NCBI GenBank assembly: GCA_017471765.1
Contig: JAFURT010000023.1
Location: 33,765 to 97,764, forward strand
Direction: 5' to 3'
Length of the DNA: 64,000 nt
From: Clostridia bacterium
Lineage (GTDB): Bacteria > Bacillota > Clostridia > Oscillospirales > Acutalibacteraceae
This document shows positions 3 through 14,482 of this stretch, piece by piece. Made by a program: the position numbers and the translations under genes. Below the pieces are notes generated by a model. That model ran no database searches, was not told the origin of the DNA, and worked only from the letters and a program-made list of their open reading frames with translations. Within the stretch, counting starts at the first letter, position 1. Each line of letters begins with the position of its first letter.

Positions 3-698
3 ATCCATCACATGACCACCGCCGGCGAGGCTCTCAATCCCGAGGTGTTCAAGAAATTTAAGGAAGCTACCGGCCTGGAGATCATGGAGGGCTTCGGCCA
101 GACCGAGACCACCCTGGCCATCGCCAACCTGGTGGGAACCGCCCCCAAGATCGGCTCCATGGGTAAGGCGTCTCCCCAGTTTGACCTGGATATTGTGGAC
201 CCCGACGGCAACAGCGTTGCCACCGGTGAGGTGGGGGAGATCGTCATCCACACCGATAAGGATGTGCCCTGCGGCTTGTTCCGGGAGTACTATCTGGATG
301 ATGAAAAGACCACCGAAGCATGGCACGACGGACTGTACCATACCGGCGACACCGCCTGGCGTGACGAGGACGGCTATTTCTGGTACGTGGGCCGTGTGGA
401 CGATGTCATCAAGTCCTCCGGCTACCGCATCGGGCCCTTCGAGATCGAAAGCGTCATCATGGAGCTGCCCTATGTGCTGGAGTGTGGCGTGTCTGCCGCC
501 CCCGACGAGGTGCGTGGGCAGGTGGTGAAGGCCAGCATCGTGCTGACCAAGGGCACCCAGCCCACCGAGGAGCTCAAGAAAGAGATCCAGCAGTACGTCA
601 AGGCACACACCGCCCCCTACAAGTATCCTCGTATTGTGGTGTTCCGGGATAGCCTGCCCAAGACCATCAGCGGTAAAATTCAGCGCAATAAACTGTAA
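3..698 (+). CDS. acyl-CoA synthetase, C-terminal part (cut by window start)
   Basis: This is the last ~231 residues of an AMP-forming acyl-CoA synthetase; the reading frame runs in from outside the window. Visible are the acid-binding/adenylate motif EGFGQTETT, the hinge region around [15 protein letters not shown], and the C-terminal SGKIQRNKL, which carries the conserved catalytic lysine. The motifs fit the ACSM-like branch, which activates short, medium, branched or aromatic acids with ATP and CoA; the substrate is not readable from sequence. It is a close paralogue of the synthetase half of the next gene, with long stretches of identical protein from the hinge on. It ends just before a T-box promoter, so it belongs to a preceding transcription unit. 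Confidence 0.9.
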
Positions 699-719: not shown

Positions 720-748
720 TTGACAAACAGGCGTGTACGTGGTACAAT
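720..748 (+). promoter_or_regulatory. sigma-A promoter of the Val T-box operon
   Basis: A perfect -35 TTGACA (720-725) and a -10 TACAAT (743-748) are separated by 17 bases. The promoter lies 22 bases after the preceding stop codon and directly upstream of the T-box leader. Confidence 0.85.
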
Positions 749-754
749 ACAGTT

Positions 755-1045
755 CAAATTAATATAAAGGCGTTGACGAAGAGGGCCCTTTTCACAGCCT
801 CCCCAGAGAGATGGCGGCCGGTGCGAGCCATTGTGGCAGGGATTGGGTTTGTAGCTTCCGAGCCGGGAGAAAGAAAGCCGTAAGGTGAGTAGAGCCTCCC
901 CGTGATTGCTGCGTAAAGGCATAGGGGTTGCTTGACCCCGAGAGTGGTTATCTTCACAGATAGCAATTTGAGTGGTACCGCGGGTGCTGTAAGGAATTTA
1001 CGACACTCGTCTCAAAGTCATTACTTTGGGACGAGTGTCTTTTTC
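755..1045 (+). promoter_or_regulatory. T-box leader, probable tRNA-Val sensor
   Basis: This is a tRNA-binding leader that permits transcription when its tRNA is uncharged. The conserved T-box core (AGTGGTACCGCGG) is at 971-983. A terminator hairpin follows (stem arms 1002-1017 and 1024-1039, then a T run). Stem I shows AGAGAG and GGTGCGAG motifs near 810-840. The candidate specifier is GTA (851-853): it is followed by a purine and then CTTC, which can pair with GAAG at ~778-781 at the base of stem I. The TGGT in the core calls for a tRNA with discriminator base A, which fits tRNA-Val and argues against the overlapping TGT (Cys) reading. T-box identity is strong; the specifier is inferred. Confidence 0.88.
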
Positions 1046-1065
1046 GTCCCGGAACGGAGAATGAT

Positions 1066-3354
1066 ATGGAACAGATTACAGGACTTGATTATAAAATCAA
1101 GGAAATGGCCGGGCGCATCCGGGAACTGCGGGAGCTGGAAGGGCTTACAACCGAGGAAATGGCGAAAAAGACCGGCGTTTCTGTAACGGAATATCTGGCT
1201 TGTGAGTCGGGAGAGAGCGACCTGAACTTTGCGTTCATCTATCGCTGTGCCTTGGCACTGAATGTAAACGTCACCGATATTATCGAGGGTAACAGCCCTA
1301 AGCTGACCGGGTTTACGGTCACCCGTGCCGGTGCCGGACAGAAGGTGTCCCAGGCTCACGGCATGACCTACTACAACCTGGCCTATGCCTTCCAGAACCG
1401 TATCGCCGAGCCGCTGTATGTGCGCAGTGTGTATGACGAGGCCGCCCAGCAGCGGGATATCGAGCTGACCACCCACGCCGGCCAGGAGTGCGACCTGATC
1501 ATCGAGGGCAACCTGATGGTGCAGATCGGTGAACACCGGGAGGTGCTGGGCCCCGGCGACAGCATCTATTTCGACTCCGACACCCCCCACGGCATGATTG
1601 CCGTCGGCGGCCGGGACTGCGTGTTCTACGCCATCGTGCTCAACCCCACCGGCGAGCCCATCCCCGAGCTGTCCCCGGCCAAGACCATCCGGGAACGGCC
1701 GGCGGTGGTACGGGACGACAAGGAGCGCATCTACAAGCAGTATATCGATGTGGAGGAGGACGAAAACGGCACCCCCACCTCCATCAAATTTAAGAATATT
1801 GAGAATTTCAACTTCGCCTTTGACCTGGTGGATGAGCTGGCAGAGTGGCAACCGGAAAAACTGGCGATGCTACATATCAGCCGGGACCACATGGAGCGCC
1901 GCTTCACCTTCAAGGACATGAAGAAGGCCTCCAATCAGTGTGCTAACTACTTCAAATCCCTGGGCATCAAGAAGGGCGACCGGGTGATGCTGATCCTCAA
2001 GCGGCACTACCAGTTCTGGTTTGCTATGCTGGGTCTCAACAAGCTGGGCGCCGTGGCGATTCCTGCCCCCAACCAGCTGTTGGAGCATGATCTGGAGTAC
2101 CGGTTCCAGGCGGCCGGCGTGACGGCGGTGCTGTGTACCGCCGATGGGGATGTGGCCCATCAGGTGGAGCTGGCGGCGGCAAAATGCCCCGGCTTACAGC
2201 ATAGGCTGATTGTGAACGGCACCCGGGAGGGCTGGCGTAGCTTCGATGAGGAGTACACCCTGTACTCCACCCACTATAATCGCACGGAGGATTCTCCCGG
2301 CGGTGATGACTTGATGCTGATGTTCTTCACCTCCGGCACCACCGGCTATCCCAAGATTGCCGCTCATAATTATAAGTATGCACTGGGGCACTTCCACACC
2401 GCCCGCTACTGGCATAATGTGGACCCGGATGGCCTGCATTTCACTATCTCCGACACCGGCTGGGCCAAGGCCATGTGGGGCAAGCTGTACGGCCAGTGGC
2501 TGTGCGAGGCGGCCACCTTTGTGTACGATTTTGACCGATTCGATGCGGCGGATATCCTGCCCATGTTTGCTAAGTACAAGATCACCACCTTCTGTGCGCC
2601 GCCCACCATGCTACGCATGATGATCAAGCAGGATATTTCTAAATACGATTTCTCCTCTGTCAAGCACATGACCACCGCCGGTGAGGCTCTCAACCCCGAG
2701 GTCTACCGGCAATTTGAGAAGGCTACCGGCCTGCAGATCATCGAGGGCTTCGGCCAGACCGAAAGCACCATGATTATCGGCAATATGGTAGGTGCCGGTC
2801 ATAAGATCGGCTCTATGGGCAAGCCGGCACCCATCTACGATGTGGAGATTGTGGATCCCGACGGCAATCCTGTTCCCGCCGGTGAGACCGGTGAGATTGT
2901 GGTGCGTGTGGCGGACGGCGCCCCCTGTGGCTTGTTCACCGGTTACTATAACGCCCCCGAAAAGACCGCCGAGGTATGGCGCGACGGTTACTATCACACC
3001 GGCGATACCGCCTGGCGTGACGAGGATGGATTCTTCTGGTATGTGGGCCGTGTGGACGATGTCATCAAGTCTTCCGGTTACCGCATCGGGCCCTTCGAGA
3101 TCGAGAGCGTCATCATGGAACTGCCCTACGTGCTGGAGTGCGGTGTGTCTGCTGCCCCCGACGAGGTGCGTGGCCAGGTGGTGAAGGCCAGCATTGTGCT
3201 GGTGCCCGGCGCCGAGGGGACAGAGGAACTGAAAAAGGAGATCCAGAACTACGTCAAGGAGCATACGGCGCCCTACAAGTATCCCCGTATTGTGGTGTTC
3301 AAGGATAGCCTGCCCAAGACGGTCAGCGGCAAGATCCAGCGCAACAAGCTGTAA
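1066..3354 (+). CDS. HTH-cupin regulator fused to acyl-CoA synthetase
   Basis: The 762-residue protein has three parts. Residues ~14-75 are an XRE-type helix-turn-helix. Residues ~100-195 are a cupin (GPGDSIYFDSDTPHGM) of the kind found in XRE-cupin regulators. Residues ~225-762 are an AMP-forming acyl-CoA synthetase, with the P-loop TSGTTGYPK at 422-430, EGFGQTES and the catalytic lysine at ~756. The synthetase would activate a carboxylic acid with ATP and CoA; its branch and the neighbouring branched-chain genes suggest a branched short-chain acid. The N-terminal part suggests DNA binding with small-molecule sensing. It is the first gene after the Val T-box, 12 bases ahead of the ATPase gene. 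The start ATG lies 14 bases after GGAACGGAG. Fusion of regulator and enzyme is seen directly; its function is inference. Confidence 0.9.
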   Translation: MEQITGLDYKIKEMAGRIRELRELEGLTTEEMAKKTGVSVTEYLACESGESDLNFAFIYRCALALNVNVTDIIEGNSPKLTGFTVTRAGAGQKVSQAHGMTYYNLAYAFQNRIAEPLYVRSVYDEAAQQRDIELTTHAGQECDLIIEGNLMVQIGEHREVLGPGDSIYFDSDTPHGMIAVGGRDCVFYAIVLNPTGEPIPELSPAKTIRERPAVVRDDKERIYKQYIDVEEDENGTPTSIKFKNIENFNFAFDLVDELAEWQPEKLAMLHISRDHMERRFTFKDMKKASNQCANYFKSLGIKKGDRVMLILKRHYQFWFAMLGLNKLGAVAIPAPNQLLEHDLEYRFQAAGVTAVLCTADGDVAHQVELAAAKCPGLQHRLIVNGTREGWRSFDEEYTLYSTHYNRTEDSPGGDDLMLMFFTSGTTGYPKIAAHNYKYALGHFHTARYWHNVDPDGLHFTISDTGWAKAMWGKLYGQWLCEAATFVYDFDRFDAADILPMFAKYKITTFCAPPTMLRMMIKQDISKYDFSSVKHMTTAGEALNPEVYRQFEKATGLQIIEGFGQTESTMIIGNMVGAGHKIGSMGKPAPIYDVEIVDPDGNPVPAGETGEIVVRVADGAPCGLFTGYYNAPEKTAEVWRDGYYHTGDTAWRDEDGFFWYVGRVDDVIKSSGYRIGPFEIESVIMELPYVLECGVSAAPDEVRGQVVKASIVLVPGAEGTEELKKEIQNYVKEHTAPYKYPRIVVFKDSLPKTVSGKIQRNKL

Positions 3355-3366
3355 GGCGGTGGATAT

Positions 3367-4032
3367 ATGCATGAGAAACGTTTAACCATCCTGTGTGGCC
3401 ACTATGGCACCGGTAAGACCAATGTTGCGGTCAACCTGGCTCTGTCCATGCGGCAGCAGGGACAGCCGGTGACGGTGGCTGACCTGGATATCGTTAATCC
3501 CTATTTCCGCACTATGGACAGTGCAGATGCTTTTGAGCACGCCGGTATCCGGCTCATCTGCTCCCGGTTTGCCAACAGCAATGTAGACATTCCGTCCCTG
3601 CCTCCTGACCTGTACGCCATCACCGACGATAAACAGACCCGGATGGTGCTGGACATCGGCGGAGACGACAGCGGCGCCACCGTGCTGGGGCGGCTGGCCC
3701 CGGCTATATTGGCGGAGGACAGCTTCGAGATGTGGATGGTGGTCAACCAGTACCGCCCCCTGACCCGGGATGTGCCTTCCACCATCGAGGTGATGGAGGA
3801 GATTGCCGCCGCGGCAGGGCTTCCCTTTACCGGCGTGGTGAACAATTCCAATCTGGGGGAGGAGACCACCGCCGCCCATGTGCTGGCCACAGTGGACTAT
3901 GCCGAGGCGGTTGCTAAGGCCGCCGGCGTGCCGGTGGTGCTGACCACCGCAGATGTGGGGCTGACACCGGAACTTACAGGGAAAGTACCTAACCTGTTCC
4001 CCCTGGAACTGCAAAAAAACAAGCCGTTTTAA
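3367..4032 (+). CDS. P-loop ATPase, ParA/MinD-like, in the oxidoreductase operon
   Basis: A 221-residue cytoplasmic nucleotide-binding protein. The Walker A motif GHYGTGKTN is at residues 11-19, followed by a switch-like VADLDIVNPYFRT segment and a Walker B-like MVLDIGGDD. The fold resembles SIMIBI-class ATPases (ParA, MinD, CooC, cobyrinate-synthase-like). Such proteins position other proteins or insert metals and clusters into enzymes. Its place between the synthetase and the ferredoxin subunit suggests help in maturing or supplying the oxidoreductase, but nothing in the sequence proves this. It has no transmembrane segment. Confidence 0.75.
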   Translation: MHEKRLTILCGHYGTGKTNVAVNLALSMRQQGQPVTVADLDIVNPYFRTMDSADAFEHAGIRLICSRFANSNVDIPSLPPDLYAITDDKQTRMVLDIGGDDSGATVLGRLAPAILAEDSFEMWMVVNQYRPLTRDVPSTIEVMEEIAAAAGLPFTGVVNNSNLGEETTAAHVLATVDYAEAVAKAAGVPVVLTTADVGLTPELTGKVPNLFPLELQKNKPF

Positions 4033-4060
4033 GAATTTTACATAGAATGAGGGTATGAAC

Positions 4061-4267
4061 ATGGCAAAACTGACATTCAAGACCGACCGTTGTAAGGGCT
4101 GTGGGCTGTGCGTAAATGCCTGCCCTAAGAAGCTGTTGCAGCTGGCTCCGGACAAGATCAACAAAAAGGGACACCATCCGGCGGAGATCACCGACCAGGA
4201 TGCTTGCGTGGGCTGTGCCGCCTGTGCAATGATGTGCCCCGACTGCGTAATCAAGGTGGAAAGGTGA
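4061..4267 (+). CDS. vorD/korD: 2-oxoacid:ferredoxin oxidoreductase, ferredoxin (delta) subunit
   Basis: A 68-residue protein with two 4Fe-4S binding motifs, CKGCGLCVNACP near the start and CVGCAACAMMCP near the end. It carries electrons between the thiamine-diphosphate site of the complex and external ferredoxin. The start at 4061 is chosen because GAGGG lies 8 bases upstream; the ATG at 4055 is too close to it. The next gene's GTG/ATG starts lie at or just past its stop codon. Confidence 0.9.
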   Translation: MAKLTFKTDRCKGCGLCVNACPKKLLQLAPDKINKKGHHPAEITDQDACVGCAACAMMCPDCVIKVER

Positions 4268-4276
4268 GTGAACAGT

Positions 4277-5344
4277 ATGGCTGAAAAGGTTTTGATGAAG
4301 GGCAATGAAGCGATTGCCGAGGCGGCCATCTGTGCCGGTTGCCGCCATTATTTCGGTTATCCCATCACCCCCCAGACGGAGATCGCCGCCTATATGGCCA
4401 AGAAGATGCCGAAGATCGGCGGTTGCTTCCTGCAGGCGGAGAGTGAGGTTGCCGCTATCAACATGGTGTATGGCGTCGCCGCCACCGGCAAGCGGGTGAT
4501 GACCTCCTCCTCCAGCCCCGGAATTTCCCTGAAGGCAGAGGGCCTGTCCTATATGGCCGGTGCCGACCTGCCGGCGCTGATCGTCAATGTTCAGCGTGGT
4601 GGCCCGGGCCTGGGCGGTATCCAGCCCAGCCAGTCCGACTACTTCCAGGCTACTCGTGGCGGCGGTCACGGCGATTACCGGATGCTGGTGCTGGCTCCGG
4701 CTTCTGTGCAGGAGATGGCCTCTCTGACTGTAAAGGGCTTTGACTTGGCAGACAAATATCGCATGACGGCCATGATTTTGGCAGACGGCACCATGGGGCA
4801 GATGATGGAGCCGGTGTCTCTGGAGTTCCCGGAGGCCGAAAAGGTGGAGAAGCCCTGGGCGACCACCGGTACCGATATGGCTCGCCCCCACAACATCGTC
4901 AATTCTCTGTTCCTCCAGCCGGACGAGCTGGAGCGTGTCAACTTCGAGCGGTATGAGCGCTACGCCTATATCGAGGCGAACGAGACCATGTACGAGGAGT
5001 ACCTGATGGAGGATGCGGAGATCTGCGTCGCCGCCTTCGGTATCGCCTCCCGTGTGGCTAAGAATGCCATCAACGAGGCACGCAAGCAGGGTATCAAGGT
5101 GGGTATGATCCGTCCCATTACCCTGTGGCCCTTCCCGGTGGCTCCCTTTGCGGCGGCCGCTGACAAGGTCAAGAGCTTCATCTCGGTGGAGCTGTCTATG
5201 GGCCAGATGATCGAGGATATTAAGCTGGCCACATCCTGCAAGAAGCCGGTTACCCTGTGTAACCGTGCGGGCGGTATCATTCCGTCCCCGGAGCAGGTGT
5301 TGGAGGCTATTCAGAATGCGGCAAAGAACGGAGGTGCCGAATAA
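4277..5344 (+). CDS. vorB/korA: 2-oxoacid:ferredoxin oxidoreductase, alpha subunit
   Basis: This 355-residue subunit begins with [27 protein letters not shown] (cited in part), the signature of KorA/VorB alpha subunits, and carries the CoA- and pyrimidine-binding halves of the enzyme. With the beta, gamma and ferredoxin subunits it interconverts a 2-oxoacid plus CoA with an acyl-CoA, CO2 and reduced ferredoxin. Subunit lengths and gene order fit both 2-oxoglutarate (KOR) and 3-methyl-2-oxobutanoate (VOR) enzymes; the ilvE neighbour and Val T-box favour VOR. The ATG at 4277 is preferred over the GTG at 4268 because AGGTGAG is 8 bases upstream. Its last base overlaps the beta-subunit start. Confidence 0.88.
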
Positions 5345-6102
5345 TGGCTGTTGTATTTGATAAACCCCATGCCTTGGCAGATATGCCGATGCACTATTGC
5401 CCCGGTTGTACCCACGGCATCATCCACCGTCTGGTGGCGGAGGTCATTGACGAGCTGGGCATTGAGGGCCGTACCATCGGTATTGCACCGGTTGGTTGTT
5501 CGGTTATGGCGTACGACTACTTCAACTGCGATATGATCGAGGCCGCCCACGGCCGTGCCCCGGCGGTGGCCACCGGTGTCAAGCGTGCCGACCCCGACAA
5601 GCATGTTGTCTTTACCTATCAGGGTGACGGCGACCTGGCTTCTATTGGTATGGCGGAGACGGTGCACGCCGCCGCCCGCAACGAGAACATCACCGTGATT
5701 TTCGTCAACAACGCCATCTACGGTATGACCGGCGGTCAGATGGCGCCTACCTCTCTGCCGGGGCAGGTCACCCAGACCTCTCCCTACGGCCGGGATACTA
5801 AGCACTGCGGCTTCCCCATCCGGGTGTGCGAGATGCTGTCCGAGCTGGAGGGCCCCGAGTACCTGGAGCGTGTCACCGTCAACAGCGTGGCCAACATCCG
5901 CAAGGCGAAAAAGGCCATCAAAAAGGCTTTCCAGAACCAGCTGGACGGCAAGGGCTTCTCGCTGGTGGAGGTAGTGTCTACCTGTCCCACCAATTGGGGC
6001 ATGACGCCGCAGGATGCCCTCAAGTGGCTGGAGGAGAATATGCTGCCCTACTATCCGCTGGGCGTGTATAAGGACAGAAGCGCAGAGGAGGGTGACAAAT
6101 GA
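5344..6102 (+). CDS. vorA/korB: 2-oxoacid:ferredoxin oxidoreductase, beta subunit
   Basis: A 252-residue thiamine-diphosphate-binding subunit. CPGCTHGI near residue 17, the cofactor motif [11 protein letters not shown] and the following [17 protein letters not shown] are all present; these are conserved in KorB/VorA/PorB proteins. It works with the alpha subunit in the cleavage or reductive carboxylation step. Gene order D-alpha-beta-gamma without gaps (overlaps of one base before and four bases after) indicates translational coupling in equal amounts. Confidence 0.9.
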
Positions 6103-6635
6103 GCCAGACACAGTTTTTGTTTTCCGGTTTCGGCGGCCAGGGCATCCTGTTCGCCGGTAAGTTCCTGGCCTATAAGGGGCTGATGGAGGACCGGCAGGTC
6201 AGTTGGCTTCCTTCCTACGGCCCGGAGATGCGTGGCGGTACCGCCAGCTGTAGCGTTATCCTCAGCGACGAGCCGGTGGGCTCGCCTATCGTCACCCGGC
6301 CGGACGTGCTGGTGGCGATGAACCTGCCCTCTTTGGATAAGTACGAGGATGCGGTGGCACCCGGCGGCATCATTTTCGCCGATTCCACCCTCATTGAGCG
6401 TAAGGTCAACCGCACCGATGTGACCACCTATTACATCCCTGCCACCAAGTTGGCCGGTGACAACGGCATCCCTACCCTGGCCAACATGATCATCGTCGGC
6501 AAGCTGCTGGCGGTGCTGGGCGAGTACAAGACCGAGGCTATCGAGACGACGCTGGGCAAGGTCATCTCTGCCCGCAAGGCCGCCATGCTGGAGGCCAACT
6601 ACAAGGCACTGCAGATCGGTGCCGATTTTGAGTAA
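6099..6635 (+). CDS. vorC/korC: 2-oxoacid:ferredoxin oxidoreductase, gamma subunit
   Basis: A 178-residue gamma subunit with the family opening [17 protein letters not shown] and the downstream [14 protein letters not shown] motif. It completes the four-subunit complex. The start overlaps the beta stop by four bases, and the gene ends 12 bases before the aminotransferase ATG, so all five genes probably share one message. Confidence 0.92.
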
Positions 6636-6647
6636 GGAGTGACAGAT

Positions 6648-7709
6648 ATGCAGATTTCTGTGACCAAGACCACTGCGCCGAAAGAAAAACCGGCCAGCGA
6701 TATTCTGGGCTTCGGTAAGTACTTTACCGACCACATGTTTATGATGGACTATTCCGCCGGCGAGGGCTGGCACAATGCCCGCATCGTGCCCTTCGGCCCC
6801 ATCGCCCTGCATCCGGCCTCTACGGTGCTGCACTACGGCTCCGAGATTTTTGAGGGCATGAAGGCGTACCGCCGTGCAGACGGACAGGTGCAGTTGTTCC
6901 GCCCGCTGGAGAACATCCGCCGTATGAACCGGTCTGCCGAGCGTATGTGCCTGCCGCCCATCCCGGAGGATGTGGCGCTGGAGACGCTGACGGAGTTTGT
7001 GCGGATGGAGCAGGAGTGGACTCCCTCTGCCCCCGGCACCTCCCTGTACCTGCGTCCCTTTATGTTCGGTAACGACGAGACGCTGGGCGTGCACGCCGTG
7101 CACAACGCCACCTATGTTATTATTGCCTCCCCTGTGGGTAGCTACTACAAGGAGGGCATCAACCCGGTTAAGATCATGATCGAGACCGAGGATGTCCGTG
7201 CCGTCCGTGGCGGTACGGGTGAAGCCAAGTGCGGCGGTAACTACGCCGCCTCCAACCGGGCTGGTCAGCGTGCAGAGCAGCAGGGCTATTCCCAGGTGCT
7301 GTGGCTGGACGGCGTGGAGCGCAAGTACATCGAAGAAGTGGGCGCTATGAACGTCATGTTCAAGATTGCCGGCGAGGTGGTCACCCCCATGCTGGCGGGC
7401 TCCATCCTGCCCGGCATCACCCGCAAGTCCATCCTGGAGGTGCTGAAAGCGGAGGGTATCCCTGTCTGCGAGCGCCGCATCAGCATGGATGAGCTGGCCG
7501 AGGCCATGGAGAACGGCACGTTGGAAGAGGCGTGGGGCTGTGGCACCGCCGCGGTGGTGTCTCCCATTGGCGAGCTGAACTACAACGGCAAGAAGTACGC
7601 CGTCAACGGCGGCCAGATCGGCCCCGTGACCCAGCACCTGTACGATACCCTCACCGGTATCCAGTGGGGCAAGATCGAGGACACCTACGGCTGGACGATG
7701 GAGCTGTAA
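6648..7709 (+). CDS. ilvE: branched-chain amino acid aminotransferase
   Basis: A 353-residue fold-type IV PLP enzyme. The PLP lysine lies in GTGEAKCGGNYA at about residue 194, followed by the cofactor motif EEVGAMNVMF. It interconverts valine, leucine and isoleucine with their 2-oxoacids using glutamate/2-oxoglutarate. AAGGAG lies 8 bases before the ATG at 6648, which is why it was chosen over the upstream GTG that overlaps this site. It is the last gene of the Val T-box operon: the oxidoreductase would make the 2-oxoacid and this enzyme would convert it to the amino acid. A strong terminator follows at once. Confidence 0.93.
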   Translation: MQISVTKTTAPKEKPASDILGFGKYFTDHMFMMDYSAGEGWHNARIVPFGPIALHPASTVLHYGSEIFEGMKAYRRADGQVQLFRPLENIRRMNRSAERMCLPPIPEDVALETLTEFVRMEQEWTPSAPGTSLYLRPFMFGNDETLGVHAVHNATYVIIASPVGSYYKEGINPVKIMIETEDVRAVRGGTGEAKCGGNYAASNRAGQRAEQQGYSQVLWLDGVERKYIEEVGAMNVMFKIAGEVVTPMLAGSILPGITRKSILEVLKAEGIPVCERRISMDELAEAMENGTLEEAWGCGTAAVVSPIGELNYNGKKYAVNGGQIGPVTQHLYDTLTGIQWGKIEDTYGWTMEL

Positions 7710-10286: not shown

Positions 10287-10566
10287 CAAATTCACATAAA
10301 CAAATGCGTTGAGGGAGAACATCTCGTTCACAGACCGTTTCAGAGAGCCGCCGTTGCTGGGAGGGCGGTACGGGAGGGTGCGGGATTCTGGCTCCGGAGC
10401 AGAGTACCGAAATCCGCAGGAAAGTAGGCTACTACGGCTTGCCCCGTTACCATGGCAGAAGGCTTGTTGGAGCCTTGCAGAGTGACCGTATTTACGGTAA
10501 TTAGGGTGGTACCACGGAAGATAGTTTCGTCCCTGAGGATGTGTATACATTCTCAGGGCTTTATTT
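10287..10566 (+). promoter_or_regulatory. T-box leader, probable tRNA-Leu sensor
   Basis: The T-box core AGGGTGGTACCACGG is at 10503-10517. The terminator hairpin at 10531-10558 (CCCTGAG...CTCAGGG) is followed by a T-rich tract. Stem I has the AGAGAG motif near 10342. The candidate specifier is CTG (10388-10390), followed by a purine and CTCC, which can pair with GGAG at ~10313-10316. The overlapping alternative TCT (Ser) would need a core with TGGC, because tRNA-Ser has discriminator G; the observed TGGT fits the A of tRNA-Leu. The downstream gene, a 2-isopropylmalate synthase homologue, also points to leucine. Confidence 0.88.
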
Positions 10567-10609: not shown

Positions 10610-11974
10610 ATGAAAACCATCAAGATTGCAGACACGACCCTGTGCCGGGAGGGGGCTTTCACCTTCCGGGAGAAAATGGAGATTGCTCGCCAGCTGGAAA
10701 AGCTGGGGGTGGATGTGATTGAGCTGCCGGCCATCACTCAGGTGCGGTCGGATACCCTGCTTGTGCGTACCATGGCCTCCTTTGTCCGGAGGGCGACGGT
10801 GTCGGTGGCGGCCGGCATGAACGAGGAGAGCATCGAGCTGGCGGCGGCGGCTCTGGAGGGGATGGCACATCCCTGCATCCGGATCGAACTGCCGGTGTCC
10901 CCGGTGGGGATGGAATATACCTGCCGCAAAAAGCCGGATAAGATGCTTCAGTGGATTCCTGTGGCGGTGGCAACCGCCAAGGCGAAGGGCGTGGCGGTGG
11001 AATTCTGTGCCGTGGATGCCACCCGTGCTGACGACGGCTATCTGGAAAAGGCCATCAATGCCGCCGTGGAGGCCGGGGCAGATAGTGTGTCCGTGTGCGA
11101 TTCCACCGGTCAGCGTTTGCCGGATGATTTCGCCGCCTTTATCGGGTCTCTGCCGAAGGCGGTGCCGCTGGGGGTCAGCTGTGAGGATAAGAACGGGCTG
11201 GCCTGTGCCCAGGCCATTTTGGCTGTGCAGGCAGGTGCCTCCTGCGTTAAGACCGCCATCGGCGGTACCACGGTCTCGCTGGAAACCTTTGCCACGCTGG
11301 TAAAGAACTGTGGGGATAATTACGGCTTTACTGCCGGGGTGAAATACACCGAACTGCACCGTATCATCAAGCAGGTAGCCTGGGTGACCGATTCCGCCCG
11401 GGGAGAAAAGCCGACGGTTGCGGTGTCTGCCCAGGAGGGTATCCAGCTGGATGCCAAGGACGACCAGGCGGCGGTGTCTGCGGCGGTGATGCAGCTGGGC
11501 TATGACCTCTCCGAGGAGGATCAGAGCCGTGTGTATGAAGAATTCTGCCGGGTAGCGGAGAAGAAGACGGTGGCGGCCAAGGAGCTGGAGGCCATTGTGG
11601 CCAGCGTGGCTCTGCAGGTGCCGGCCACCTATCGGTTGGTCAGCTATGTGATCAACAACGGCAACATCATTTCGGCCAGTGCCCAGATCTCGCTGGAAAA
11701 GGGAGATAAGGTACTGCAGGGGGTGTGCATCGGCGACGGCCCTATCGATGCGGCTTTCCGGGCGATTGACCAGATCATCGGCCATCACTATGAGCTGGAC
11801 GATTTCCAGATCCAGGCGGTGACCGAGGGCAAGGAGGCTGTGGGTCAGGCTCTGGTGAAGCTCCGGGATAAGGGACACCTGTATTCCGGCAGCGGTATCT
11901 CCACCGACGTTATCGGCGCCAGCATCCGTGCTTATCTGAATGCCGTCAACAAAATCGTCTACGAGGAGGCGTAA
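10610..11974 (+). CDS. 2-isopropylmalate-synthase-like protein lacking catalytic residues
   Basis: A 454-residue protein with the layout of a short LeuA: an HMGL-like TIM barrel (~1-270) and a C-terminal LeuA regulatory domain ending in GISTDVIGASIRAYLNAVNKI. Catalytic members start with DTTLRDGEQ, where Arg is catalytic and Asp binds the metal; here it is DTTLCREGAF (residues 8-17). The metal-binding HxH(N/D)D segment is replaced by SCEDK (190-194). It therefore probably does not carry out the acetyl-CoA aldol reaction, but could still bind leucine or act as a partner or regulator. The start is ATG 10610 after GAAGGGA; an upstream GTG in frame lies inside the terminator hairpin. First gene of the Leu T-box operon, four bases before the next. 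Confidence 0.85.
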   Translation: MKTIKIADTTLCREGAFTFREKMEIARQLEKLGVDVIELPAITQVRSDTLLVRTMASFVRRATVSVAAGMNEESIELAAAALEGMAHPCIRIELPVSPVGMEYTCRKKPDKMLQWIPVAVATAKAKGVAVEFCAVDATRADDGYLEKAINAAVEAGADSVSVCDSTGQRLPDDFAAFIGSLPKAVPLGVSCEDKNGLACAQAILAVQAGASCVKTAIGGTTVSLETFATLVKNCGDNYGFTAGVKYTELHRIIKQVAWVTDSARGEKPTVAVSAQEGIQLDAKDDQAAVSAAVMQLGYDLSEEDQSRVYEEFCRVAEKKTVAAKELEAIVASVALQVPATYRLVSYVINNGNIISASAQISLEKGDKVLQGVCIGDGPIDAAFRAIDQIIGHHYELDDFQIQAVTEGKEAVGQALVKLRDKGHLYSGSGISTDVIGASIRAYLNAVNKIVYEEA

Positions 11975-11977
11975 GAG

Positions 11978-14482
11978 ATGAAACTCGCTTTTTCTACCAA
12001 AGGATGGCATGATTGCTCCTTTGAGCAGTTCTGTCAGGTGGCAGGGGATCTCCACTTTGAGGGCATCGAACTGCACAACATCTATAACCGCCTCTTCACC
12101 GATAAGGAGGGGGCTTTCCACGATTATACCGCCGCGGCCACCCGCCGCCGTCTGTACGAGAATGGGTTGCATATCCCCTGTATTGACACGGTGTGCGACG
12201 CCGCTGAGGGGGATACGCCCCACAATGTGGCCGAGGTGAGCCGTTGTCTGGAGATTGCCGCTAACCTGAACATTCCCTGTGTCCGTCTGAAAGCCTATGC
12301 CGCCGCCGGGGACGAGGCGGCCGTGGAGCGTGTCTCTGCTTTGATTGCCGGGGTACTGCCCGAGGCTACGGACAAGGGGATTACCCTGCTGGTGGAAACC
12401 TCCGGCCTGTTTGCCAACACCGCTGTGTTGCGGCAGGTGCTGGATAGCTTTGCCAGCGATAACCTGGCCGCCCTGTGGAATCTGTCTGCTGCCTATTTTG
12501 CCGGCGGCGAGTCTCCCGATGAGGTCATCAAGAATCTGGGTGCCTACGTGCGGCACGTGCATATCAACGATGCGATTGCCGGCGAGAATGGGGCGGAATA
12601 CTGCCTGATGGGAGAGGGAAGCCTGCCCATCCGGAAGATGATGCTGGCTCTGCGGTCGGTCAACTACGACGGCTATATCTCCCTCGTGTGGGATCCTGCC
12701 TGGTGTGAGGAGCTGGATGATATGGAAATTATCCTCACCCAGTTTGTCCACTATATGAAGCAGTTCGGGGATACCTCCCGGAACGAAAAGGCGCTGTACT
12801 ATAACCGGGCCCATACCGGTAAGTTTGTGTGGGAGAAGGACCGCCTTATCGACTGCACCTTCTCTCAGGTGCTGGACCGGATGGTGGAGGAATTCCCCGA
12901 CCAGTACGCCTTCAAATACACTACGCTGGATTATACCCGCACCTATGCGGAGTTCCGTGACGACGTGGATGAGTTTGCCCGGGTGCTGATTTCCCTCGGG
13001 GTGAAAGCCGGCACCCATGTGGCGGTGTGGTGCTCCAACGTGCCCCAGTGGTATATCGCCTTCTGGGCGACGGTGAAGCTGGGCGCCGTGCTGGTGACGG
13101 TGAATACCGCGTACAAGATTCACGAGATTGAGTACCTGCTCCGGCAGTCGGATACCCATACCCTCATCATGACCGAGGGGGGCAAGGATTGCCACTACGG
13201 CCAGATTGTAGCGGAGCTTTGCCCCGAGCTGGATACCCTCAAGCCCGGCCAGTCGCTTCACGCACGCCGCCTGCCCTTCCTGCGGAATGTGATTACCGTG
13301 GGCTACCGGCAGAAGGGCTGTATGGAATGGCATGAGGCGTTGGAGCGTGCCAATCAGGTGCCGGTGGAGGAGGTCTACCGGATGGCGGCGGCGGTGGACA
13401 AGGACGATGTGTGCAATATGCAGTACACCTCCGGCACCACCGGCTTCCCCAAGGGCGTTATGCTCACCCATTATAATGTGGTGAACAACGGCAAGTACAT
13501 CGGCGACCAGATGGAGCTGTCCACTGCCGATCGGATGATGATTCAGGTGCCCATGTTCCACTGCTTTGGCATGGTGCTGTCCATGACGGCCTCCATGACC
13601 CACGGTGCCACCATGTTGCCGCTACCCTATTTCTCCCCCAAGCCGGCGCTGGCTTGTGTCCACAACGAGCACATCACCGCCTTCAACGGCGTGCCCACCA
13701 TGTTTATCGCCATGATGCAGCACCCGGACTTCGAAAAGACGGATTTCTCCTATATGCGTATCGGCATTATGGCCGGCTCCAACTGCCCGGCTGACCTGAT
13801 GAAGGAGGCCGCCACCGGCCGCATGGGGATGCGGGAAATCGTGTCGGTGTACGGCCAGACGGAGGCGGCGCCTGGCTGTACTATGAGCCGGTATTACGAT
13901 AGCCTGGAGGTGCGCACCGAAACGGTGGGCAGTGCCTTTGCTAATGTGGAGTGTAAGATTGTGGACCCGGAGACCGGCGCGGATTGCCCTGACGGGGTGA
14001 ACGGTGAGTTTGTGGCCCGTGGCTACAACATCATGAAGGGCTATTACAAGATGCCGGCGGCTACCGCCGAGGCCATCGACAAGGATGGTTGGTTGCATAC
14101 CGGCGACCTGGCCTGCCGCCGTCCCGACGGCAACTACCTGATTACCGGCCGTCTGAAGGATATGATTATCCGTGGCGGCGAGAACATCTACCCCAAGGAG
14201 ATCGAGGAGTTTATCTACACCTGCTCCAAGGTGCGGGATGTGCAGGTTATTGGCGTGCCGGATAAGCAGTACGGCGAGGAAATTATGGCTTGCATCATCC
14301 TCAAGGATGGGGAGAGCATGACCGAGGCGGAGATGAAGGAGTATATCGCCACGCACATGGCTCGTCACAAGGTGCCCCGGTACATCGAGTTTGTGGACAG
14401 CTTCCCCATGAATGCCGCCGGTAAAATTCTCAAGTATAAGATGCGGGAAGAAGCGGCGAAACGGCTGGGACTTGAAGGGTAA
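11978..14482 (+). CDS. TIM-barrel (xylose-isomerase-like) domain fused to acyl-CoA synthetase
   Basis: An 834-residue fusion. Residues ~1-275 match sugar phosphate isomerase/epimerase TIM barrels (GIELHNIYNRL, LVETSGLF, LGAYVRHVHINDA, YCLMGEGSLPI). Residues ~285-834 are an AMP-forming acyl-CoA synthetase of FadD type, with YTSGTTGFPKGVMLTH from residue 483, YGQTEAAPG, GRLKDMIIRGGENIYP and a C-terminal AGKILK lysine. The barrel has changed at usual metal positions: where relatives have WDPxH and SLEWDPAW, it has WNLSA and SLVWDPAW (family pattern from memory). The synthetase looks complete and would make an acyl-CoA; the acid is unknown. It lies between the LeuA-like gene and the amidohydrolase under one Leu T-box. 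Confidence 0.88.
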   Translation: MKLAFSTKGWHDCSFEQFCQVAGDLHFEGIELHNIYNRLFTDKEGAFHDYTAAATRRRLYENGLHIPCIDTVCDAAEGDTPHNVAEVSRCLEIAANLNIPCVRLKAYAAAGDEAAVERVSALIAGVLPEATDKGITLLVETSGLFANTAVLRQVLDSFASDNLAALWNLSAAYFAGGESPDEVIKNLGAYVRHVHINDAIAGENGAEYCLMGEGSLPIRKMMLALRSVNYDGYISLVWDPAWCEELDDMEIILTQFVHYMKQFGDTSRNEKALYYNRAHTGKFVWEKDRLIDCTFSQVLDRMVEEFPDQYAFKYTTLDYTRTYAEFRDDVDEFARVLISLGVKAGTHVAVWCSNVPQWYIAFWATVKLGAVLVTVNTAYKIHEIEYLLRQSDTHTLIMTEGGKDCHYGQIVAELCPELDTLKPGQSLHARRLPFLRNVITVGYRQKGCMEWHEALERANQVPVEEVYRMAAAVDKDDVCNMQYTSGTTGFPKGVMLTHYNVVNNGKYIGDQMELSTADRMMIQVPMFHCFGMVLSMTASMTHGATMLPLPYFSPKPALACVHNEHITAFNGVPTMFIAMMQHPDFEKTDFSYMRIGIMAGSNCPADLMKEAATGRMGMREIVSVYGQTEAAPGCTMSRYYDSLEVRTETVGSAFANVECKIVDPETGADCPDGVNGEFVARGYNIMKGYYKMPAATAEAIDKDGWLHTGDLACRRPDGNYLITGRLKDMIIRGGENIYPKEIEEFIYTCSKVRDVQVIGVPDKQYGEEIMACIILKDGESMTEAEMKEYIATHMARHKVPRYIEFVDSFPMNAAGKILKYKMREEAAKRLGLEG

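Follow-up and report, generated by a model that had tools for sequence, protein, structure and literature searches.

A T-box operon with a valine specifier, predicted to make valine from isobutyrate, in a Clostridia bacterium

Introduction

Isoacids, the branched volatile acids, serve rumen bacteria as nutrients, and the conversion of these acids into amino acids was traced decades ago; in the work of Allison and Peel in 1971 and of Robinson and Allison in 1969, rumen bacteria reportedly used isobutyrate to form valine and 2-methylbutyrate to form isoleucine. In the present study we describe a candidate set of genes for such a conversion, found in a 64000-nucleotide stretch of DNA from a Clostridia bacterium, which is called the window below (bases 33765–97764 of contig C15; source genome 1.92 Mb, 78.6% complete). 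On the + strand and in this order, the operon comprises a promoter, a T-box leader, a terminator and seven genes running from an acyl-CoA (coenzyme A) synthetase to the branched-chain aminotransferase IlvE (window positions 720–7709). Judging from sequence comparisons, we consider it very probable that this operon makes valine from environmental isobutyrate, and that a twin synthetase together with shared enzymes makes isoleucine from 2-methylbutyrate.

Several described systems resemble parts of this locus, the following statements being taken from excerpts of the papers cited. The rumen precursors are isobutyrate for valine, 2-methylbutyrate for isoleucine and isovalerate for leucine (cited in PMC7356843), and in Methanobrevibacter ruminantium isoleucine is probably derived from 2-methylbutyrate (PMC2812497). 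T-box control of the ilv and leu operons of Bacillota is well known (PMC12452182). Among enzymes that act on branched acids, MacsMa prefers 2-methylbutyrate and has a tryptophan, Trp259, that is called critical (PMC10455477), and MbcS of Staphylococcus aureus is selective for 2-methylbutyrate and isobutyrate, poor with isovalerate, and feeds fatty acid synthesis (PMC10026030).

Results

A T-box leader with a valine specifier

The operon leader has a stem I with an AGAGA motif, located by means of the covariance model, a specifier loop, an antiterminator core and a competing terminator (Table 1). Its score of 76 bits with RF00230 is below the gathering score of 93 bits, and for this reason it is missing from a default Rfam scan; the threshold is strict for this genome, because five of its 12 clear T-boxes, including those before asnS, cysE and alaS, fall below it. 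Free-energy folding of stem I (764–870) gave no signal (z 0.92), and the terminator folds at −28.0 kcal/mol compared with a shuffle mean of −8.25 (z −9).

Specifiers were read in a fixed register, in which the codon is followed by one nucleotide and then by the lower-stem strand. This register gives the correct codon in six T-boxes of the same genome, namely those of pheS (UUC), tyrS (UAC), cysE (UGC), ileS (AUC), thrS (ACC) and alaS (GCC), all of these genes being named by NCBIfam over the cut-off except ileS, a fragment that is under it. Read in this way, the operon leader specifies GUA (Val), the leader just upstream of the window AUC (Ile) and the leader at 10300 CUG (Leu). That GUA is a misreading of another codon is ruled out by the six-gene register together with the relatives, in which the specifier switches only among the Val codons GUA, GUC and GUG, and the valine T-box that a first-pass annotation had proposed from the letters of the window is thus supported. 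The source genome encodes a tRNA-Val(UAC) with discriminator A and an encoded CCA, and the UGGU bulge suits discriminator-A tRNAs, tRNA-Val(UAC) and tRNA-Leu(UAG) of this genome both having A. The tRNAs read in the source genome (30 of 35 loci) include Val(UAC) and Val(GAC) as well as Leu(UAG) and Leu(UAA).

Table 1. Features of the operon, its upstream neighbour and the following Leu T-box operon (window coordinates)
Feature	Position	Strand	Basis or remark
3′ end of upstream paralogous XRE-cupin-AMP-ligase synthetase (755 amino acids, Ile T-box)	3..698	+	start outside window
Sigma-70-type promoter	720..748	+	TTGACA-17-TACAAT, 11/12 matches
T-box leader, stem I to antiterminator, Val	764..1017	+	RF00230, 76 bits, E 1.1e-16
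Specifier triplet GUA (valine)	851..853	+	register calibrated on six same-genome T-boxes; relatives GUA/GUC/GUG
Antiterminator T-box core GAGTGGTACCGCG, UGGU bulge	970..982	+	tRNA-Val(UAC) discriminator = A
Intrinsic terminator hairpin, overlaps antiterminator	1002..1039	+	17 pairs plus five T
Acyl-CoA synthetase with N-terminal XRE helix–turn–helix (HTH) and cupin; predicted isobutyryl-CoA synthetase	1066..3354	+	HTH_3, Cupin_2, AMP-binding, AMP-binding_C
Codon of Ala467, acyl-pocket residue separating Val- from Ile-controlled enzymes	2464..2466	+	alignment column
P-loop ATPase, ParA/NUBPL-like, 221 amino acids	3367..4032	+	PF10609, PF01656
Oxidoreductase delta subunit (4Fe-4S ferredoxin)	4055..4267	+	NCBIfam/Pfam searches
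Oxidoreductase alpha subunit, VorB subfamily	4268..5344	+	NF005507, 540.6 bits, cut-off 399
Oxidoreductase beta subunit (thiamine pyrophosphate)	5344..6102	+	PF02775; every NCBIfam match below cut-off
Oxidoreductase gamma subunit	6099..6635	+	PF01558; every NCBIfam match below cut-off
Branched-chain aminotransferase IlvE	6639..7709	+	TIGR01123 412.4 bits, cut-off 250; NF009897 also over cut-off
Second T-box leader of the window, heading the next operon (related regulon); Leu, CUG	10300..10537	+	RF00230, 114.4 bits
2-Isopropylmalate-synthase-like protein without HxH metal motif, Leu T-box operon	10610..11974	+	domain search, alignment
Fusion of TIM barrel and AMP ligase in the Leu T-box operon; candidate for another acyl-CoA synthetase	11978..14482	+	

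Twin synthetases under isoleucine and valine T-boxes

Directly before the Val promoter lies a second synthetase gene (L014:11196–13463, ending at window base 698) under its own Ile T-box (AUC), the product of which is 64% identical to the window synthetase and has an identical Pfam domain set. Because this Ile T-box synthetase sits in tandem with the operon, isoleucine synthesis probably draws on the oxidoreductase and IlvE as well. The first-pass annotation had listed a synthetase, a four-subunit oxidoreductase and IlvE in an operon dedicated to valine: these genes and the Val leader stand, but it had missed the P-loop ATPase, the XRE HTH and cupin head of the synthetase and the upstream Ile twin, and the dedication to valine is weakened by the probable sharing.

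We then surveyed a family set of 120 genomes, in which a synthetase match was accepted at E ≤ 1e-100 and an alpha-subunit match at E ≤ 1e-60, and 122 annotated loci, consisting of the window, stretches from its own genome and from relatives, and the best 80 of at least 591 named loci. Synthetase matches were found in 67 and alpha-subunit matches in 70 of the family genomes, and at least 25 genomes carry the fused synthetase a short distance upstream of the alpha subunit. The named relatives, among the best 80 of at least 591 loci, are metagenome-assembled genomes (MAGs), many of them from ruminant guts. The search for this gene order behind T-boxes, which had been suggested with the first reading, gave 149 readable T-boxes before the synthetase in the 122 loci: 89 specify Ile (AUC) and 60 Val (GUA 56, GUC 2, GUG 2), and none specifies any other amino acid. 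These counts include some loci that duplicate each other and the window leader twice; 142 specifiers were read by script and seven (L025, L050, L054, L073, L122, L130 and L147) were assigned by hand. The operon described here has a Val T-box, but some relatives have it behind Ile T-boxes alone. A T-box stands within 420 nucleotides of 145 of the 163 synthetase starts that have at least 450 nucleotides upstream. A further 14 Ile leaders were read, ten of them by eye, seven before fused and seven before split genes; 13 of the synthetases behind them have Gly at residue 467, and the remaining one, L232, has Met. Five fused synthetases of Ruminococcus MAGs (L158, L161, L163, L164 and L165), together with L162 and L166, have no T-box within 420 nucleotides upstream, are 61–62% identical and carry Gly at the pocket position.

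Codon and acyl pocket change together

In a FastTree phylogeny of 142 distinct synthetases, 56 of the 57 Val-controlled enzymes fall on one side of a branch with a support of 100, and the Val/Ile label changes twice on the tree compared with about 44.7 times in shuffles. Residue 467 is Ala in 57/57 Val-controlled and Gly in 84/85 Ile-controlled enzymes, such that it fits the codon in 141 cases. When a class-separating column is defined as one with a consensus of >75% in each class and differing letters, this residue is the sole such column in the catalytic domain, the other seven (11, 56, 60, 72, 73, 112 and 190) being N-terminal. A single Val-controlled enzyme, that of L167 (GUG), falls elsewhere: it groups with the Ile-type enzymes yet has Ala467, as if the Val branch had arisen independently here, and a divergent oxidoreductase and P-loop ATPase lie nearby on the other strand (L167:381–5443). 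Nine tandem second genes, which lie downstream of an Ile-type gene and have no T-box of their own, show Ala467 in all seven that could be read at this position.

The closest solved relative of the window synthetase is PDB 3ETC (611 bits over residues 238–760, a match that begins beyond the HTH-cupin head), which we take to be MacsMa of Methanosarcina acetivorans. The aligned acyl-pocket residues of MacsMa, Trp259 included, are conserved in the window synthetase; the further pocket residues are presumably Trp237, Trp254, Lys256, Cys298 and Gly351, in a numbering that assumes the PDB chain to be offset by 23 residues. In the alignment, residue 467 falls on the Gly of the MacsMa GWGK motif (GW[A/G]K), four residues before the Trp numbered 259, so that MacsMa and the Ile-controlled enzyme have Gly in common where the Val-controlled enzyme has Ala. 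The larger Ala467 would suit a substrate that is one carbon smaller. The earlier proposal of isobutyrate as the substrate is thus strengthened, the pocket residue following the specifier and related enzymes acting on 2-methylbutyrate and isobutyrate (excerpts of PMC10455477 and PMC10026030).

The best NCBIfam match of the window synthetase is MbcS (NF047394; 438.4 bits, under the cut-off), and as that enzyme feeds fatty acid synthesis (excerpt of PMC10026030), the synthetase might instead supply branched primers for membrane fatty acids while the oxidoreductase makes acyl-CoA from 2-oxoacids, as in the MbcS/Bkd system of Staphylococcus. Control by tRNA-Val or tRNA-Ile and an operon shared with IlvE suit amino acids better, however, and the absence of ilvC and ilvA tracks the specifier (see below); we regard a role in lipid synthesis as extremely improbable.

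The HTH-cupin head may have a separate origin. In 20 more distant homologues (L227–L246), whose match starts at residue 216–247, a separate XRE-like frame stands just upstream in 19 (by eye) and an Ile T-box precedes that frame in seven, findings from the full upstream sequence which rule out that these homologues lack a head or T-box altogether; their residue 467 is Met in 11, Gly in seven and Ala in two. Because the XRE-like head is a separate upstream gene in these homologues, the window synthetase seems to have arisen by the joining of a regulator-like gene to the synthetase gene next to it. A motif resembling GAATATC was considered as an operator for the HTH head and dropped, being found before 15/84 Ile, 4/58 Val, 1/26 Leu and 1/5 unassigned leaders.

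The oxidoreductase and its P-loop ATPase

The oxidoreductase is predicted to act on the pair isobutyryl-CoA and 2-oxoisovalerate; a search of solved structures found no close characterized homologue. Alpha subunits encoded beside a fused synthetase are 72–89% identical to that of the window, whereas those of 14 contrast loci are 58–65% identical, and none of these 14 loci has a synthetase match or a convincing T-box. The oxidoreductase also shares one operon with the synthetase, which lies upstream on the same strand for 56 of the 59 alpha hits in annotated loci (a figure biased because the loci were picked by synthetase or operon), and with IlvE for 40 of them. Both the identity values and this gene order speak against the idea that the enzyme uses another 2-oxoacid, such as 2-oxoglutarate or pyruvate, and is placed here incidentally, which could be argued from solved homologues such as 8ys5, a 2-oxoglutarate synthase, and 1yd7, a 2-keto acid enzyme; of the alternatives that we weighed, this is the least probable.

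The P-loop ATPase (3367–4032), perhaps a loader of iron–sulfur clusters, is retained in 13/14 contrast loci and thus adjoins the oxidoreductase both with and without T-boxes. Because the contrast loci, without synthetase or T-box, keep the oxidoreductase, mostly with the ATPase, the T-box, the synthetase and IlvE seem to have joined an oxidoreductase cluster that existed before them.

Absence of ilv genes follows the specifier

No match to ilvC, ilvD or ilvA was found in the 78.6%-complete source assembly, ilvB being outside this search, and ilvC and ilvD are also unmatched in a 94%-complete genome of the same genus (G021). Across the 120 family genomes, ilvC is over the cut-off in 74 and ilvD in 73, and ilvA (TIGR01127) is matched in 54, in 53 of them over the cut-off. 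Matches to ilvA, to ilvC and, over the cut-off, to ilvD are jointly absent from 19/22 genomes with a Val-type synthetase, and in most Val-branch relatives IlvA, IlvC and IlvD seem to be replaced by the present route.

The absence of ilvC is graded: it is missing from 19/22 Val-type, 11/25 Ile-only and 16/73 remaining genomes, the last class including genomes whose synthetase upstream was not read. In Fisher tests, Val-type genomes differ from all others (19/22 compared with 27/98; P 4.5e-7) and from Ile-only genomes (P 0.0054), and Ile-only genomes differ from the rest (P 0.041). Among ilvC-positive genomes, ilvA is missing from 10/14 Ile-only compared with 11/57 of the rest (P 3.7e-4); earlier versions of this comparison gave 5/10 compared with 16/64 for all T-box genomes (P 0.13) and 8/11 compared with 13/60 with Val-type genomes excluded (P 0.0017), and because it was refined step by step the ilvA pattern is only suggestive. 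As the Val branch would make ilvC and ilvD dispensable, and the Ile branch alone only threonine deaminase, our model predicts the absence pattern that is observed. The leuC model TIGR00170 fails to separate LeuC from aconitase, with 0/120 genomes over the cut-off; Val-type genomes have fewer matches each, with aconitase-like frame lengths among the matches listed, and this only suggests that LeuC is missing from them.

These absences bear on the direction of the pathway. Peptide fermenters use 2-oxoacid:ferredoxin oxidoreductases, which are reversible, in catabolism, and the family has the related clusters described above in which there is neither synthetase nor convincing T-box, so one may ask whether the operon instead breaks valine down to isobutyrate to gain energy, by a Stickland-type reaction or with excretion of the acid. 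A Val T-box, however, activates its genes at valine shortage, the AMP-forming type of ligase favours activation, and degradation leaves unexplained the joint absence of ilvA, ilvC and ilvD from Val-type genomes. Degradation is therefore in our view very improbable, and the biosynthetic, reductive direction given in the first-pass annotation gains comparative support from the same 19/22 genomes.

Neighbouring T-box operons

The next operon of the window is under Leu control. Before its LeuA-like gene and the relatives of this gene (L045, L046, L049, L057, L066 and L101 among others), 24 T-boxes were read, all Leu (CUC 19, CUG 5), out of 29 starts with enough upstream sequence. The LeuA-like protein keeps the allosteric domain of LeuA but has the HxH metal motif in 0/28 readable rows, window included, and may be an inactive enzyme retained for sensing leucine. 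The second gene of this operon (11978–14482) joins a xylose-isomerase-like TIM barrel to an AMP-forming acyl-CoA ligase; the fusion is sometimes found beside the Ile/Val cluster in relatives and is a candidate isovalerate synthetase.

Further T-box loci were noted in the source genome. On contig C20 (L084:264–4711), indolepyruvate-oxidoreductase genes, the beta subunit of which is over the cut-off, are followed by a T-box read as Phe (UUC, shifted by one base from the usual register), a PaaK-like ligase that scores below the cut-off of its family and a 143-amino-acid protein taken as an ACT-domain protein, and this locus is a candidate for a similar acid-to-amino-acid logic, for phenylalanine. 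On contig C3 (L085:3000–5933), a Trp (UGG) T-box with a UGGC bulge precedes trpB and a 369-amino-acid protein for which Pfam gave no match. An Asn (AAC) T-box, also with a UGGC bulge, stands before asnS and asnA on contig C35 (L086:3350–6103), an ordinary T-box operon.

Discussion

In the mechanism that we propose, uncharged tRNA-Val would pair, at valine shortage, with GUA and the UGGU bulge of the leader, the antiterminator would then form, and transcription would pass the terminator so that the operon is expressed. Isobutyrate, a fermentation product of neighbours, would be activated by the synthetase to isobutyryl-CoA with conversion of ATP into AMP and pyrophosphate; the ferredoxin-dependent oxidoreductase would carboxylate this to 2-oxoisovalerate with reduced ferredoxin, and IlvE would aminate the product to valine. 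The upstream paralogue under the Ile T-box would likewise activate 2-methylbutyrate to 2-methylbutyryl-CoA, from which the shared oxidoreductase and IlvE would give isoleucine.

Several observations weigh against this proposal. At the locus itself, tRNA-Ile is absent among the tRNAs read at 30 of the 35 loci of the source genome; the window synthetase does not reach the MbcS cut-off of 850 bits and is not classed as MbcS; and the solved homologues of the oxidoreductase are 2-oxoacid, 2-oxoglutarate, pyruvate and oxalate enzymes, VorB being a subfamily name. Among the relatives, 18/163 synthetase starts have no T-box within 420 nucleotides (nine tandem second genes; one split BLAST hit; the first tandem gene of L109, which has other genes in front of it; and seven solitary genes, from five Ruminococcus, one Oscillospiraceae and one Bacillota MAG, all with Gly467), nor have 8/15 further fused homologues that were read. 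The pocket rule is broken by L063, which is Ile-specified, has Ala467 and is the sole synthetase match of its genome, and by the split-gene homologue L232, with Met467 behind an Ile T-box. With regard to the ilv genes, the Val-type genomes G046, G105 and G116 retain ilvA, ilvC and ilvD, and two others (G004 and G050) show ilvD-family matches under the cut-off; ilvC is also lacking in the 16/73 genomes without a read T-box synthetase, and plain auxotrophy is therefore common. Finally, the family genomes are not independent, and the source assembly is incomplete (78.6%).

A wider proposal, to which we give an even chance when all its parts are taken jointly, is that many gut Oscillospiraceae-like bacteria have replaced de novo branched-chain synthesis by an amino-acid-resolved carboxylation of volatile acids scavenged from neighbours, a separate tRNA controlling the use of each acid (that for Ile, that for Val and probably that for Leu, besides a comparable Phe leader on a phenylacetate-CoA-ligase-like gene), that residue 467 and the T-box codon coevolve, and that the XRE-cupin head turns the fused enzyme into a sensor which also acts on transcription. 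The cluster offers testable gene markers for gut bacteria that rely on cross-fed isobutyrate or 2-methylbutyrate. Because the T-box RNA names an amino acid, two near-identical enzymes can be told apart by substrate, and the T-box codon directs attention to one residue as the specificity switch; used as a substrate label, this codon could aid the annotation of other acyl-CoA synthetases and 2-oxoacid oxidoreductases.

No literature joining T-boxes with the use of isobutyrate or 2-methylbutyrate, or reporting these genes along with how they are regulated, was found among the matches listed, which is weak evidence of novelty because subscription journals and preprints were mostly uncovered. The overall conversion is that of the rumen isoacid pathway, and many of the named relatives are ruminant-gut MAGs; whereas the titles of the rumen studies concern biosynthesis from the acids, the present locus adds candidate genes, a separate synthetase for each acid and tRNA-specific control. 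With the ilv and leu T-boxes of Bacillota it has the RNA mechanism and the amino acids in common, but those T-boxes run the acetohydroxyacid route and the one described here a carboxylation route from volatile acids.

The synthetase resembles MacsMa in the 611-bit match to 3ETC, the conserved Trp259 and its neighbours and, on the MacsMa side, the preference for 2-methylbutyrate; it differs in that MacsMa is archaeal, that the match starts after the HTH-cupin head, and that the Ala of the Val-controlled enzyme corresponds to Gly in MacsMa. MbcS, its best NCBIfam match, activates 2-methylbutyrate and isobutyrate, but according to the excerpt it feeds fatty acids, and the window synthetase is below the cut-off of that family. 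For M. ruminantium, a reductive carboxylation of a required branched acid has likewise been proposed; that organism is an archaeon, and the excerpt describes neither a synthetase pair nor a T-box. Compared with these systems, the pathway and the RNA switch are already known, and what is new is the gene set, the tRNA-resolved twin synthetases and the pocket signature.

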